This document shows, in pieces, positions 1,203 to 7,790 of a stretch of DNA of 32,307 nucleotides. Under the pieces are notes generated by a model. That model saw nothing but the letters and a program-made list of their open reading frames with translations, made no database searches and was not told the DNA's origin. Within the stretch, counting starts at the first letter, position 1; each line of letters begins with the position of its first letter. Made by a program: the position numbers and the translations under genes. Origin of the DNA: Candidatus Heimdallarchaeota archaeon (GTDB lineage: Archaea; Asgardarchaeota; Heimdallarchaeia; Hodarchaeales; Hodarchaeaceae); the NCBI GenBank assembly GCA_020348965.1, contig CP070760.1, forward strand, positions 2,474,690-2,506,996. The letters are read 5' to 3'.

Positions 1203-2150
1203 TTATGGAAGAATTGAAGTAATTACCACTCCCATGAATAACCAGAGAAATGCTAACGCCATGAAAATTGACGCGAGCTTGAAAATTTTGAATGTCCTTT
1301 CGTGAGATGGTTCTCTAAGATTTGCAAGTGCTTGAAAGAGAATGAAAGCGCAGAACAGAATTAAGGGGAGGAGTGCGAGAATGTGAATATGGAGGCTTAT
1401 CCCAGCCATAACAATGATTGATGCACTGAGTATTGCAGACAAAGTTACAACGTAAATTGTTTGGGTTTGACTACTAACAACAGGCCACATAGGAACTTTG
1501 GCATTCTTATATCCTTCTAGATTTTTAGGAATAAGAGCAAGTGTAAGAATATGCAGAGGGATCCAGCAGAGGACAAAAAGCCCCATCAATATTGCGGCTA
1601 TATCAATGTACCCCAATACTGCAGTTCGACCTGCGATAGCTGGAAGTCCTCCTGCAATCCCTCCAAAAATAATAGATAATCGTGTTCGACGCTTTAATAA
1701 TAGTGAATAAACAACCACATCAAAGAAAAACCCCAAAAATACGACGACCATTGTAACTAGACTGGTGAATACACCTACAGCTAAAATACCTGCTGTGGTA
1801 AAGAGAACACCGTGTTTTAGAACAGTAGACGGGGGAATTCGACGGCTAGGTAAGGGACGATCCTTTGTTCGTTCCATGAGTGCATCAATATCACGATCTA
1901 CGTACATATTGAGCAAAGTTGAACCTGAAATAGCAAAGAAAACTCCGATAGTGAACCAAATGAAGTTCAAGAGGTTAAAACCTAATCCCCACGTGCTAAT
2001 TAAATAACCAAAGATTGCGGTATATAGGAGAAGAAAGGTCTGTTTGCTCTTGATCAGTTCACCATATGTAGAAAAAGAAAGAGGAGGATATGTATAGGAT
2101 GTCACGTCATCATATTCCTGGGATTGGAGGGGAATTTTTATTTCAGTCAT
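1203..2150 (-). CDS. ctaB: Heme O synthase (protoheme IX farnesyltransferase), UbiA family
   Basis: This 315-residue multi-pass membrane prenyltransferase is expected to add a farnesyl group to heme b, giving heme o for heme-copper oxidases. The diagnostic first Asp motif is intact (N81, D85, D89, followed by RTKDRPLPSRRI). The family signature LLKRRTRLSIIFGGIAGGLP follows at about 151-170. The second motif region runs WIPLHILTLAL to KVPMWPVV, with H200 where CtaB proteins have WTPPHF. The length is normal for CtaB, with about nine helices. It follows the 12-TM oxidase-like gene by 53 nt and probably supplies its cofactor. I see no Shine-Dalgarno site. Instead, the start codon is the last three bases of a 21-bp tandem duplication, and a 15-codon ORF overlaps the start. 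Other UbiA prenyltransferases are possible but fit the motifs less well. Confidence 0.93.
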   Translation of the reverse strand: MTEIKIPLQSQEYDDVTSYTYPPLSFSTYGELIKSKQTFLLLYTAIFGYLISTWGLGFNLLNFIWFTIGVFFAISGSTLLNMYVDRDIDALMERTKDRPLPSRRIPPSTVLKHGVLFTTAGILAVGVFTSLVTMVVVFLGFFFDVVVYSLLLKRRTRLSIIFGGIAGGLPAIAGRTAVLGYIDIAAILMGLFVLCWIPLHILTLALIPKNLEGYKNAKVPMWPVVSSQTQTIYVVTLSAILSASIIVMAGISLHIHILALLPLILFCAFILFQALANLREPSHERTFKIFKLASIFMALAFLWLFMGVVITSILP

Positions 2151-2203: not shown

Positions 2204-3808
2204 TTATTCTGGAAACTCCTTTACATCTTTCCTTCCTTTGAGAATTTCGATGAGCTGATGGAAACAAAAGATGGTAATTGCGATGACAAAAAGCATTATG
2301 CCAAGATCAAGTGCAAGAGGTAACCAAGACGCAATAGACTCCCAATATTCCTGTACGTCTGCATACTTAGTGAGATTAACGGCCCAATCCTGATCCATGT
2401 GTGGAAAATACATATAGATGACTGCAAATCCGAATGCAATTACACTTCCTGCAAATAATAACCAGCCCATTAGTTTTCGTGGAAGGCCTTGAATATCTAT
2501 CATGTCTATGAATAGGAGTAGCAATATAACAGCTGATAATGTGGCTAAGACATGCCAATGTCCCCGTGCTACGGTCGTTTCGACAGCTAGAGGCCCCTCA
2601 CGGAATGCTACAAGACTAGTCACCCTCGTCAAAATTGAAGGATCGTCACCACCGTCAAGACTGAGAGCAAGGAATATACCTGAGAATGTCATAACAAAAT
2701 TTACCCAAATAAATAAGAAATACAATGAAAATTTCACAGGGTCCTTAAACACAGCTTTAGCACGACTAAACCATGATGCGGATTCATATGTATCACCGAG
2801 AATCCCTTTGCTTGTTCTATTCCAACCAGTTAGTGCCAATATTACACCAACTAAAACAAGAATTCCCGATCCAGCATAAATTAGGTAATGTGCATCAAAG
2901 GGGATTATGTCTCCAAAGGTTACAAGCCAAGCTCCTATTGACATGATTAGCATTCCAGGAATAACAAGTACCATTGATAAAAGGTACCATCTTCCCTTTT
3001 GATCGGGGACTGTGTATCTATATACAATAAGTAGAATAATCACATCAATCAGGGCTAACATTATATGCAAGTGCGCCTTGATGCCATCAACGAAAATTAT
3101 TGGGTAAATAGACTCGTTCCATGGAGCGATGTCGTGTCTTAGAAAATATTCCGCTAGTAATGGTATCATTCCATTTCCGAAAAATGCTCCAACTGCGGCT
3201 CCAATGATAACACTTACTAAGATACAGAAAGCCAGTAGAGCTAATGTGAGCTGCCCGACGAATATGTTACGGCCAGCTTCTTGATCTCGTTTTGGAAAAC
3301 TCTTAGTTGGAAAAACACCGATGAGTAGAATGACTCCTGCATAGAACGTAAGAGATAACCCTACAAGGTACAAACCATGAATTATCCAGGCTTCAGGAAG
3401 AATATATGCAAAAATCATTCCGCTTGCGGAAGCTAAAATACTCCCAATAAATAATGGCCATTTCACCCGTGACTTGAACTTCTCCCGCACATCCATAAAT
3501 TCCAAAACAAAGTATGTGCATGTGGCAATGAATGGGACCGCGATTGAATGATAAACCATAATAAGTCTGCCAGCTTTCTCAACATCCCTGAAGGGGTTTC
3601 CATCGGGAGTTAACGGATCAGCAAAAGGTATTGCTAACAATGGTTGTCCAAGGATTGCCTCTATTGGCTGAGAGAAAGTCGATAAAAACAGAATAATACA
3701 GAATTCCCAAACTATCGTGAAAGTTATCATTCCTTTAAAGGTCAGACCGTAATTTATCTTGTACTTTAACCATGGAATTATTCCTTCTTCTTTTTCTACA
3801 GTTGTCAT
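2204..3808 (-). CDS. 12-TM heme-copper oxidase subunit I-like protein without canonical CuB histidine pair
   Basis: The 534-residue protein has about twelve membrane helices. Histidines occur in helix 2 (H87, in MVYHSI), helix 4 (H144), helix 6 (H246 and H248, in KAHLHIM), helix 8 (H307) and helix 10 (H417 and H419, in RGHWHV). In heme-copper oxidase subunit I the low-spin heme is held by His in helices 2 and 10, the high-spin heme by a second His in helix 10, and CuB by His in helices 6 and 7. The helix 2, 6 and 10 pattern matches, but helix 7 has no HH pair and no HPEVY-like motif is seen. A good SD (GAGGT, seven bases upstream) fixes the ATG. The next gene, ctaB, makes heme o, which supports a heme protein. 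The membership is inferred from topology and His spacing; a divergent NorB-like or purely electron-transferring relative is possible. Confidence 0.6.
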   Translation of the reverse strand: MTTVEKEEGIIPWLKYKINYGLTFKGMITFTIVWEFCIILFLSTFSQPIEAILGQPLLAIPFADPLTPDGNPFRDVEKAGRLIMVYHSIAVPFIATCTYFVLEFMDVREKFKSRVKWPLFIGSILASASGMIFAYILPEAWIIHGLYLVGLSLTFYAGVILLIGVFPTKSFPKRDQEAGRNIFVGQLTLALLAFCILVSVIIGAAVGAFFGNGMIPLLAEYFLRHDIAPWNESIYPIIFVDGIKAHLHIMLALIDVIILLIVYRYTVPDQKGRWYLLSMVLVIPGMLIMSIGAWLVTFGDIIPFDAHYLIYAGSGILVLVGVILALTGWNRTSKGILGDTYESASWFSRAKAVFKDPVKFSLYFLFIWVNFVMTFSGIFLALSLDGGDDPSILTRVTSLVAFREGPLAVETTVARGHWHVLATLSAVILLLLFIDMIDIQGLPRKLMGWLLFAGSVIAFGFAVIYMYFPHMDQDWAVNLTKYADVQEYWESIASWLPLALDLGIMLFVIAITIFCFHQLIEILKGRKDVKEFPE

Positions 3809-3870: not shown

Positions 3871-4665
3871 CTAGGCTTTCGTTGGTGTCGAATCTGAGGC
3901 TCGATCGACTGCAAGTACGTGTCCTGCAATTCGTGTTACTAATCCCAGTAAGATGCAAGTCAGTCCACCGATGAACTGAAGTGTGCCTGAGGCGAGGAGG
4001 TAACCATAAGAAGAGGCAATATTAACTCCATCAATAATATGCATAGGCATGAGGAATGGCTGGAACATCATCACAATACCGAAACCAAACAGCACATATG
4101 CAAATTGAGTTACTTGTGATCCGACACTCTCGTCAGTAGAAACCCCCACATCTTCCATATGAGTGTTTACTCCACGTCTAACCATGGGGAGTATTAGTAT
4201 GATGAAAATGATTAAATTAATGATCGTTCGGAACCAAGAGGGGGTGAATACCATCCCATTAACGCCGTAGCTCAAATACCATTCCCAAAACAAAATAAAG
4301 GCTGGTAAAAATCCACTAAAAAATCCGAGAATGCTGGTAATGAGGGCCACTGGATAGAACCATCTTTTTCTCGTTCCTAATGCCCAGTACAAAACTCCCC
4401 AAGCAATTGCTACTAGCCATGTCACAAAGTAACTTAGAACGTAGATTAATTGATTTTCGCCAATTACTCCGAATGTGTAACCGCCATCAGAGTTAATTAA
4501 TTTCCACCATCCAGGATCGAATGTTGTACAGGTAGCTCCAATTCCACTTACAAGTCCGATAGCAGCAGCAGCACCTGAAAGTATATAGAGAAGTTTCACT
4601 TCCTTTGAACCTTTTAATTTATCGAGAAGTTTGCTCAATTTCTTCCTGTCCTTCTTATTTATCAT
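3871..4665 (-). CDS. Unknown 6-TM membrane protein, first gene of the oxidase-like operon
   Basis: I do not recognise this 264-residue protein. It has a basic, lysine-rich N-terminus (about residues 1-20) and then roughly six membrane helices. A loop after helix 1 contains GATCTTFDPGWWKL. The histidines (in NTHMED, MPMHIID and AGHVLAV) are few and mostly near loops, so it does not look like a heme protein itself. It lies 62 nt upstream of the 12-TM oxidase-like gene on the same strand, so it may be a partner subunit or assembly factor; this is inferred from context only. There is no SD before the ATG. A TATA box about 70 nt upstream and a palindrome beyond it suggest that it heads the transcript. 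Confidence 0.8.
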   Translation of the reverse strand: MINKKDRKKLSKLLDKLKGSKEVKLLYILSGAAAAIGLVSGIGATCTTFDPGWWKLINSDGGYTFGVIGENQLIYVLSYFVTWLVAIAWGVLYWALGTRKRWFYPVALITSILGFFSGFLPAFILFWEWYLSYGVNGMVFTPSWFRTIINLIIFIILILPMVRRGVNTHMEDVGVSTDESVGSQVTQFAYVLFGFGIVMMFQPFLMPMHIIDGVNIASSYGYLLASGTLQFIGGLTCILLGLVTRIAGHVLAVDRASDSTPTKA

Positions 4666-5093: not shown

Positions 5094-5573
5094 TTAAGTT
5101 GAGTTTTGAAGTTCTTCTGGGGAAAATACAATTGGATCTCGTAACTCTAACAATTTACCTGCTTTATCAATGTCTATCATTGGGACACAGTTGTGGATAC
5201 AACTGAAAGAACGACATTTTTTTGTTCTAATCTCCCCCCATTTCATTCCCCATCCTTTTAAAACACCAAAAATTACTCGCAAGTCTATTCCTTTCTCTGT
5301 TAGGGAATACTTCACTCTAACGGGCATTTCATCACTGACTACTTCGCGAGTAATTAAATTAGATTCTTCGAGCATTTTTAGGGCCTCTGATAAAACCCTG
5401 GCTGAGATTTTCTCCCCGTAATTCCCTTCAATTCTCTCAAGAAGATCTGAAAAATATAATTCTTTTACTGCTAATAATTCACAAAGGATCCAAGGAATCC
5501 ACTTTCGCCCGAGGATTTTTATTGCTAGTAATGCTGCACATTCCTCTTCACCTTCTTGAGTTGTCGTACTCAT
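5094..5573 (-). CDS. HxlR-family winged-helix transcriptional regulator
   Basis: The 159-residue protein fits the HxlR family: C12 followed by LLAIKILGRKWIPWILCEL, a recognition-helix region ISARVLSEALKMLEES (about 56-71), the wing VRVKYSLTEKG (85-95) and the closing L-K-G-W-G (105-109). Such proteins are DNA-binding dimers, often tuned by redox, aldehydes or small ligands. The C-terminal tail is unusual, with C120, C125 and C129 (CRSFSCIHNC) which, with C12, could bind a metal or cluster or form disulfides. It lies upstream of, and in the same direction as, the oxidase-like operon, with a palindrome between them, so local control of that operon is likely. An alternative is simple autoregulation. 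Confidence 0.92.
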   Translation of the reverse strand: MSTTTQEGEEECAALLAIKILGRKWIPWILCELLAVKELYFSDLLERIEGNYGEKISARVLSEALKMLEESNLITREVVSDEMPVRVKYSLTEKGIDLRVIFGVLKGWGMKWGEIRTKKCRSFSCIHNCVPMIDIDKAGKLLELRDPIVFSPEELQNST

Positions 5574-5998: not shown

Positions 5999-6691
5999 TT
6001 AAAATAACCCACTAATCACTGGAATTTCAACCTTCCATTTGGATGGGAGACCTATACCTAGGACGAAGAGTACTCCAACTATTAATAGAAGATATGGAAG
6101 GATATCAAAGATCAACAGTAATAGATCTGGATTTCCATCTCCTACTGTGGCAATAGCCAGCAAGACACCTCCAAAGGAAATTAGAAGACCGCCGATTCCG
6201 AAGAATGCGCTCGTCCATTCGGTATCCTTAGATACAAATGCCGTATAGAGGGGGAGAAAAGAAATTATCAACCCTGATGGAATATGAGATCCCATCACCG
6301 CCATGGAAGCCATATCTGATAAAAACACATCAAGTTTCATCAAAGTTAATACTCCAATAACGATAAGACAGTAGATGGCATAGATGAATCCATATTTGGC
6401 GTCAGGCCATACGGCAAACACGAGGCCGATTGCCAAGCATGCAGGTATGAATGCTGCAACGGGAGGTACAAGTGGAGAAGCTAAAGTATCTTCCCAACCA
6501 AGAAATATTATCAATACTCCTGAGATGAACAGTACCAAAAAGCTGACTGCCCATGCTAAATGGTAGGGTTTCTTTGTTGCCATATACTCTTTTAATAATA
6601 ATAAAACTAAGATTATGGCTACTATACCAACAACTAGAAGCACTAATGCTCCTAGCAGATCAGTTTCTAATAAAGATTTTCCTGCAACCAT
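5999..6691 (-). CDS. Unknown 7-TM membrane protein
   Basis: I do not recognise this 230-residue protein. It is almost entirely hydrophobic, with about seven helices, an outside-facing short N-terminus and a motif TKKPYHLAWAVSFLVLF after helix 1 (about residues 39-55). The K-x-Y-H-L-A-W pattern is reminiscent of 7-TM sensory input domains, but no cytoplasmic output domain follows. It has few charged residues in the membrane (D at about 103 and 131) and no lysine positioned like a retinal-binding residue in the last helix, so it does not look like a rhodopsin. It is a single gene, divergent from the cyclase gene. No SD is visible before the ATG. Confidence 0.8.
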   Translation of the reverse strand: MVAGKSLLETDLLGALVLLVVGIVAIILVLLLLKEYMATKKPYHLAWAVSFLVLFISGVLIIFLGWEDTLASPLVPPVAAFIPACLAIGLVFAVWPDAKYGFIYAIYCLIVIGVLTLMKLDVFLSDMASMAVMGSHIPSGLIISFLPLYTAFVSKDTEWTSAFFGIGGLLISFGGVLLAIATVGDGNPDLLLLIFDILPYLLLIVGVLFVLGIGLPSKWKVEIPVISGLF

Positions 6692-6926
6692 TTTTCTTCA
6701 ACACGTTTAATTTTACGATCAAAAAGAGGCTATTTTTTACTCGTATTCTACGAATTACGAATCAAAGAGAGTATTAAAACAAACAAAAATAAGTAACTTT
6801 TGATAACTTTTTAGTAACCTACTGTATAGTACCCCATAGTCAAATTAGTTCAATCTAGTCTTTATTTTAGAAACCTCAGCATTTTTTGAGTGTTCGAAAG
6901 CAACAGTAATATCCTAATATAGTTTG

Positions 6927-6933
6927 TATAAAT
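6927..6933 (+). promoter_or_regulatory. TATA box for the cyclase-family gene
   Basis: TATAAAT lies 51 nt upstream of the chosen ATG (6984), with an expected start site near 6957. It sits in the 292-bp divergent spacer shared with the 7-TM gene. Confidence 0.5.
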
Positions 6934-6983
6934 AGGGTATGTACTTAGTAATTAACTGTAAATAAATTGAAGAAGTGGTAAAA

Positions 6984-7790
6984 ATGGCAAATTCATTTCG
7001 AATGATAGATTTAACCCAACGATTAAGCATTCATACTCCCCCATGGCCAAGTTATGTTCCCCTACAATTACAGTACTTCAAACGGATAGCGGGAGCCCAT
7101 ATGGGTCAAGGAGCAAATGGCCAAATTCTCACTACGAGTAATCATGTGGGTACTCATATCGATGGAGAAATCCATTTCTTCGCCGCAGGGCGGACAATTG
7201 GTGAAATGGAGTTAGAGGAATTCTGTGGCCCAGGAGTGGTCGTTGACCTCTCTGATGTTATGACTGATTACGATCTTTATTCCCCTGAGTTACTCATGGA
7301 TCGAGCTGATATTAGAAAGGGTGACATTCTTTTAATCAAAACGGGATACCAGCGGTATGCTTGGGACCAACCTGAAAGTGATGAAGTGCGGTATTTTGTA
7401 AAACATCCTGGACCTGATAAAGATTTTCCCCAATGGGCTATGGATATGGAGTTTAAGTGGATAGGGGTGGATTGTGGGTCTGCTGATCATCCAATGAATA
7501 CAATTATTCGTGATTGGCATCCCAAATTATTCCATGAAGCAGAAAAGAAACTGATAGAAAAATATGGTGTCCAATCATGGGATGAAATGTTTCCCCCTGA
7601 CAAATTCTACCAAATTATGCATATAGACCTGTTTCCCAAAGGAGTGATTCATGCTGAGAATTTGTGGATTCCTGATGATTCCTTACTTAATAACAAGCGA
7701 GTCTGGATTGGTTGCTTTCCGCTGCGGGGTATAGAATTAGAGTCATCAATGTGTCGGATCGTTGCATTTCCAGATGTTCCCCTCGACTAA
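6984..7790 (+). CDS. Cyclase/kynurenine formamidase-like metal-dependent hydrolase
   Basis: The 268-residue protein belongs to the Cyclase family (PF04199; KynB-like). The metal motif H54-x-G-T-H58-x-D60-x3-H64-F is intact, and the later elements IGVDCGSAD (about 160-168) and AENL (224-227) match the family's second half. Members are cytoplasmic and hydrolyse amide, lactone or cyclic imide bonds, as in N-formylkynurenine. The substrate here is unknown because no tryptophan-degradation or cyclic-amide genes are nearby. The ATG at 6984 was chosen because it gives the conserved MIDLTQ start and a GTGGT element lies just upstream; a GTG at 6975 would add three residues. It is a lone gene with its own TATA box, convergent with the beta-mannosidase. 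Confidence 0.92.
   Translation: MANSFRMIDLTQRLSIHTPPWPSYVPLQLQYFKRIAGAHMGQGANGQILTTSNHVGTHIDGEIHFFAAGRTIGEMELEEFCGPGVVVDLSDVMTDYDLYSPELLMDRADIRKGDILLIKTGYQRYAWDQPESDEVRYFVKHPGPDKDFPQWAMDMEFKWIGVDCGSADHPMNTIIRDWHPKLFHEAEKKLIEKYGVQSWDEMFPPDKFYQIMHIDLFPKGVIHAENLWIPDDSLLNNKRVWIGCFPLRGIELESSMCRIVAFPDVPLD

Follow-up and report, generated by a model that had tools for sequence, protein, structure and literature searches.

What kind of protein has the heme ligands of a heme-copper oxidase (HCO) but not its copper ligands, and what might it do? The question is raised by a gene at positions 2204..3808, minus strand, of a 32,307-nucleotide stretch of DNA (referred to as the window) from a Candidatus Heimdallarchaeota archaeon. 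A first-pass annotation of the window, made from sequence alone, had proposed a diverged relative of oxidase subunit I in which both heme sites are retained and the copper site is changed or lost and which, together with a neighbouring heme O synthase, belongs to a distinct complex rather than a normal oxidase. As described below, the encoded HCO-like protein is likely to represent an uncharacterised, diverged branch of the HCO fold, in which the heme ligands are retained and the metal site is changed. No earlier description was found in the open-access literature searched; this is weak evidence, and a description elsewhere is still possible.

The HCO-like protein has twelve helices and matches no known family

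The open reading frame starts with ATG and encodes 534 amino acids. Searches of the protein against Pfam gave no match better than E 0.1, PF00115 (COX1) included, NCBIfam gave zero matches and nothing significant was found among PDB sequences. When 27 family members were scanned jointly against Pfam, no common family emerged and COX1 was not matched, and a search of PDB sequences with the family profile returned nothing. An AlphaFold2 model, for which 25 Asgard sequences served as input, consists of 12 long helices (pLDDT 85, pTM 0.88): TM1 24-45, TM2 73-104, TM3 109-135, TM4 141-165, TM5 179-207, TM6 237-266, TM7 273-296, TM8 307-340, TM9 357-382, TM10 407-436, TM11 442-471 and TM12 495-524. 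The first-pass annotation had counted about twelve helices, and exactly twelve were modelled. Its placement of the histidines also held, with H87 in TM2, H144 at the start of TM4, H246 and H248 in TM6, H307 as the first residue of TM8 and H417 and H419 in TM10, as did its statement that there is no HH in helix 7 and no HPEVY-like segment. No proton channel pattern was seen in the protein.

Fold and profile comparisons point to heme-copper oxidases

The model was compared with the PDB using Foldseek. Ranks 1-46 were all HCO chains (mitochondrial and bacterial COX1, cbb3 CcoN, bo3, ba3 and qNOR), and beyond rank 46 other folds of low probability followed. The scores are weak, with a best E-value of 4.9e-3 (none passes 1e-3) and a TM-score of about 0.5, and generic membrane folds can also reach a Foldseek probability of 1.00, as seen in a search with the 7-TM partner described below. 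The protein thus passes a fold test for HCOs at modest strength.

Profile-profile comparison and structure modelling had been suggested by the first-pass annotation as checks, and both revealed similarity to COX1. Using HHalign, the HCO-like family matched canonical HCO alignments with a local p of 3.1e-4. In global mode the best match to combined HCO alignments reached a p of 1.6e-7 and others ranged from 1.5e-6 to 1.1e-4; global comparison with A-type or B-type COX1 alone gave no useful match. Controls (UbiA, MFS and the other membrane families of the module) remained at p >= 0.03 in local and >= 0.07 in global mode. The profile alignments place H87 at or close to the TM2 heme histidine of COX1 and GHWH on the TM10 motif GHFH. 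In the COX1 alignments, the segment FDAHYLIY, which contains H307, lies over the CuB motif VWGHHMYT; the global fam-hco alignment does not show this correspondence. The register of TM6 is ambiguous, so that either H246 or H248 could be the equivalent of the CuB ligand.

Two explanations that deny this kinship were considered. The first holds that the protein is an unrelated 12-TM transporter whose histidine spacing resembles that of HCOs by chance. The lack of HMMER matches to COX1 families and the weak Foldseek E-values would fit this idea. Against it stand the invariant ligands in the right helices, profile p-values far better than those of the controls, the dependence on a heme O synthase (see below) and the fact that the top PDB fold matches are all HCOs. 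We therefore regard a transporter as very unlikely. The second explanation is a relationship to NnrS (PF05940), a polytopic heme- and copper-containing membrane protein of the NO response. Both proteins are polytopic and have conserved histidines including an HxH motif, but HHalign gave no signal (p 0.17-0.33) and no PF05940 match was found in the window's own genome. NnrS kinship, also suggested for checking by the first-pass annotation, was rejected for lack of profile similarity and is all but excluded. It is very likely that the protein is an HCO-fold heme protein, although its heme content is inferred.

To examine internal repeats, the family alignment was cut into TM2-4 (r1), TM6-8 (r2) and TM10-12 (r3). 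Self-similarity was evident for r2-r3 (p 6.3e-10), r1-r3 (1.6e-6) and r1-r2 (0.0016). In the repeat alignment the TM6 motif HLH corresponds to HWH of TM10, and H144 to H307. Canonical HCOs show repeats too, with probabilities of 96% and 80% for two of the pairs.

The three-fold internal repeat of heme-copper oxidases is itself visible at profile level (canonical alignments L075-L103 and L124-L135).

Predicted heme ligands are invariant while the CuB site is not conserved

H87, H144, H246, H248, H307, H417 and H419 are invariant in 76/76 HCO-like sequences from two domains of life. The remaining histidines H225, H470 and H517 vary across the homologues, so that the pattern of the seven exceeds what chance would give. 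Both low-spin heme ligands of COX1, the TM2 histidine and the second histidine of the TM10 HxH, have aligned counterparts in H87 (codon 3548..3550, minus strand, as are all codons given here) and H419, and the high-spin heme ligand, the first histidine of that motif, is present as H417 (H417-W418-H419, 2552..2560). The heme-ligand test is passed on this basis; ligation itself is predicted. The codons of H246-L247-H248, one of which occupies the place of the TM6 CuB ligand of COX1, are located at 3065..3073, that of H307 at 2888..2890 and that of H144, its equivalent in the r1-r2 alignment, at 3377..3379. R81, Y86, Y135, E220, R224, M250, E410, W418 and W449 are also invariant. E410 precedes H417 by 7 residues, which we take to match Asp369 before His376 in bovine COX1.

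Other hallmarks of the superfamily are missing: besides PF00115, the protein fails the tests for the CuB triad and for the active-site Tyr or Glu. A CuB/FeB triad is not met, given the HLH of TM6, H307 at the border between loop 7/8 and TM8 and the lack of an HH. There is no Tyr four residues after the TM6 histidine, this position being the invariant Met250 or Leu252, and no invariant Tyr in TM6-TM9 of the 76 sequences. Likewise, the combination of three histidines with the Glu of nitric oxide reductases (NORs) or the Gln of eNOR is not met, as TM6-TM9 contain no invariant Glu or Gln in these sequences. Because the active-site Tyr, Glu and Gln are missing, neither of the known reactions (with O2 or NO) can be predicted from the residues. 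An altered metal site may exist in place of CuB, but this remains a possibility only, and any metal content is inferred.

These data support the first-pass claim that both heme sites are kept, and they support a changed copper site; in one alignment H307 is set on the CuB HH. Its suggestion that H307 or H144 takes part is strengthened, both residues being invariant and equivalent in the internal repeat, although any bound metal is inferred.

Compared with known systems, the protein shares with A- and B-type COX1 (PF00115) the modelled 12-TM fold, the TM2 and TM10 heme ligands, an acidic residue seven positions before the high-spin heme histidine, the three-fold repeat and, by implication, the use of heme O. 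It differs from COX1 in lacking the HH pair of CuB, the TM6 Tyr and any Pfam match, in carrying HLH where COX1 has HPE/AVY, in its invariant H144 and in having no CuA or cupredoxin subunit in COX1-negative genomes. With NORs (cNOR, qNOR, eNOR) it shares the absence of the active-site Tyr, and qNOR is among its Foldseek matches. However, NORs keep three FeB/CuB histidines plus Glu or, in eNOR, Gln, whereas TM6 of the HCO-like protein has the invariant Met250. A cupredoxin subunit accompanies the active-site Gln in eNOR (PMC8756737), while neither NorC nor a cupredoxin partner was seen in the HCO-like module. NORs use heme b and are not known to require a heme O synthase.

The gene belongs to a module conserved across archaea and bacteria

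Downstream of the HCO-like gene lies a gene for a 315-amino-acid heme O synthase of the UbiA type (CtaB/CyoE; 1203..2150, minus strand), which exceeds the TIGR01473 cut-off (214.9 versus 210.3 bits). On the other side, a 264-amino-acid membrane protein with about six hydrophobic segments by eye is encoded at 3871..4665 (minus strand). It is conserved in 11 Asgard loci, contains an invariant Cys in a GxGxxC motif and a conserved His, has no Pfam or NCBIfam match and is homologous to a 6-TM operon protein of Chloroflexota (c24/c5; profile comparison 98.5%). A second membrane partner of 230 amino acids (5999..6691, minus strand) belongs to no known family and has one invariant histidine, H136. 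Its model shows seven long helices (pLDDT 93), and its gene was present in 33/65 surveyed neighbourhoods, usually adjacent to the HCO-like gene. The structure of this 7-TM partner was considered as a clue to function and dismissed, Foldseek having returned generic 7-TM fold matches only. An HxlR-type, RrpB-like transcription regulator is encoded at 5094..5573 (minus strand; PF01638 9e-18; NF047364 3.3e-15, under its cut-off), and its cluster recurs near 11 Asgard loci.

CtaB is linked to the HCO-like gene in most surveyed loci. The typical order in Anaerolineae is c11, 7-TM, HCO-like gene, FGE-like lipoprotein, CtaB, a 7-TM copy and 6-TM, and a Crp/Fnr regulator is often included. In one Anaerolineae subgroup (L180, L182, L054) the HCO-like gene immediately follows canonical COX1, and NDH-2 and hemerythrin/DUF438 genes are found near L054, L182 and L074. 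The HCO-like gene, CtaB and the 7-TM and 6-TM partners thus form, as shown by computation, a module conserved across archaea and bacteria.

The survey of neighbouring genes, a further check put forward in the first-pass annotation, bore out its description of the locus. The ctaB neighbour and the conserved 6-TM protein of no known family were confirmed, and so was the absence of a nearby subunit II with a CuA or cupredoxin domain, as a Pfam scan of 17 proteins from the window (not all of its ORFs) revealed no COX2 or cupredoxin. Its distinct complex is supported as a ctaB module; activity and metal content are inferred. The module is wider than had been recognized, comprising a second partner, extending into Chloroflexota and having a dedicated CtaB clade.

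Several further genes were observed around the module. Canonical COX1 and the HCO-like gene at L180 are accompanied by a gene (6635-7057) for a cupredoxin-like subunit II, in which inspection by eye showed no CuA cysteines. The FGE-sulfatase-fold lipoprotein (L069 11449-12411 and equivalents) has a fixed position between the HCO-like gene and CtaB and occurs in bacteria only. This protein (c3, PF03781) was rejected as a clue to function, its catalytic Cys pair being missing by eye and the protein being absent from Asgard. In the window, a putative cyclase (PF04199, arylformamidase-like; 6975-7790, plus strand) adjoins the module, with homologues near three other Hodarchaeal loci.

A dedicated heme O synthase accompanies the HCO-like gene in genomes without COX1

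Among 82 COX1-negative Asgard genomes, a strong CtaB (130 bits or more) was detected in 17/18 with the HCO-like gene compared with 2/64 without it (p 1.8e-14, an optimistic value, the genomes being related). The one exception, G024, has only a fragment of the HCO-like gene. In the CtaB tree, the family-linked CtaBs group together in a single clade (99/96) that includes both Asgard and Chloroflexota sequences, and this sets the synthases of the Asgard and Anaerolineae modules apart from other CtaB/CyoE proteins. G125 is an exception, with its sole CtaB outside this clade. These data make it likely that the HCO-like protein uses heme O, although occupancy by the cofactor is inferred.

The two genomes with a strong CtaB and neither COX1 nor the HCO-like gene, G082 (L119 9517-10401) and G095 (L113/L120), carry a CtaB of a separate lineage.

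Heme A synthase was found in COX1 genomes only, and COX2 (PF00116) in none of the COX1-negative Asgard genomes searched, including G000 (the window's own genome), G006, G034, G038, G060 and G092. Five of these (G006, G034, G038, G060 and G092; 91-98% complete) keep the HCO-like gene and have neither COX1 nor bd oxidase. The window's own genome has no match to PF00116 or PF00115, in an assembly that is only 71% complete. By computation, the HCO-like module needs no CuA, CtaA or COX1 partner.

This distribution bears on the idea that the protein is a chaperone or assembly factor which passes heme O from CtaB to a terminal oxidase. In favour of this, the HCO-like gene occurs nearly always beside or together with CtaB, and in some Anaerolineae it is located directly behind canonical COX1. 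On the other hand, it is present in near-complete Asgard genomes without COX1 or bd oxidase (G006, G060, G092), and three genomes with canonical COX1 (G108, G114, G115) have a separate CtaB a few kb from COX1, outside the family clade, in addition to a family-type copy. A chaperone function is hence unlikely.

The window's own genome does encode a bd oxidase. Its subunit I (PF01654) was found in two distant pieces covering profile positions 80-418 and 1-77 (C1:602886-603962 and C1:1461854-1462084), possibly reflecting a split gene or an assembly rearrangement.

Proposed function

What the analyses show by computation is a family with invariant histidines, a fold like that of HCOs and an internal repeat, together with the dedicated heme O synthase and the conserved partners. 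Cofactor occupancy, the heme type at each site, the quinol donor, catalysis and the substrate are all inferred. With this reservation, we propose that the protein acts as core subunit in an uncharacterised HCO-fold membrane redox complex that uses heme O for quinol-driven reduction of O2 or NO, a reading for and against which the evidence is finely balanced, catalysis being unproven. In this view, H87 of TM2 and H419 of TM10 would hold one heme between them, which would correspond to the low-spin heme of COX1. A second heme, probably heme O supplied by the co-encoded CtaB, would be bound by H417 and would face a rebuilt distal site, in which H246/H248 of TM6 and H307 replace CuB with its HH pair. 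Because a CuA subunit is absent, the electron donor would probably be quinol of the membrane pool, with electrons perhaps passing through the 7-TM and 6-TM partners, which carry conserved His and Cys residues. The likeliest task would be to reduce a small gas, either O2 or NO, at this second heme, with the reaction under redox control. For the narrower claim that the protein is itself a catalytic gas reductase, catalysis and substrate being inferred, we find the doubts slightly heavier than the support.

The main rival, which is possible, is a non-catalytic HCO-fold heme protein, i.e. an electron-transfer or gas-binding/sensing cytochrome whose second site is closed by bis-His ligation (H417 and H248). 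The protein lacks the active-site Tyr, Glu and Gln but has additional invariant histidines, the equivalence of HLH and HWH in the repeat makes a second bis-His heme plausible by symmetry, and the partners carry conserved His and Cys; all of this would suit such a cytochrome. The dedicated clade of heme O synthases argues against it by pointing to a farnesylated heme. In known enzymes (bo3/aa3) farnesylated heme serves the high-spin catalytic site. A further point against the proposed reductase is that canonical oxidases co-occur with the gene in some Anaerolineae and that in one subgroup it lies directly after canonical COX1, which would fit an accessory role as well.

The proposed redox complex also admits a bolder reading. 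From the three-fold repeat, H246 and H144 may be inferred to belong to the third pore of the bundle. The readable repeat would then assign the histidines to all three HCO pores, with cofactors at H87/H419, at H417 with H248 and H307, and at H246 with H144. We consider this possible; to our knowledge no cofactor is present in the third pore of known HCOs, which is empty. If confirmed, such a three-site heme protein would serve as a model of how the symmetric ancestor of the respiratory oxidases was built. Independently of this reading, the HCO-like protein makes it possible to test how the three-fold bundle evolved its metal sites.

Distribution of the family

HCO-like homologues were found in 25/96 relatives, the window's own genome excluded. 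In named genomes, 44 loci are distributed over Hodarchaeota, other Heimdallarchaeota, Thorarchaeota and Anaerolineae/Chloroflexi, and two MAGs labelled Bacteroidales also carry the gene. In a sample of the class Anaerolineae it was present in 56/298 genomes, some of which also possess canonical oxidases. Asgard and bacterial members separate in the family tree.

Surveys that rely on PF00115 would miss this gene. Its presence in Hodarchaea and Heimdallarchaeia, which are relatives of eukaryotes, bears on claims about respiration of O2 or nitrogen oxides in these lineages. CIV and nitrate reductase were inferred for the ancestor in the work of Eme et al. (2023; PMC10307638) on Hodarchaeales respiration, and nothing resembling the HCO-like protein was found in the passages of that paper on oxidase, heme and nitric oxide. 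The HCO-like gene also opens to test the question of what heme O is used for in near-complete Asgard genomes without a known terminal oxidase.

Two genomes contain incomplete versions of the gene. In G024 (L025/L123) only a piece of about 100 amino acids is present, and in G057 (L043, L018) the ORF is split in two; either case may reflect decay or a sequencing break.
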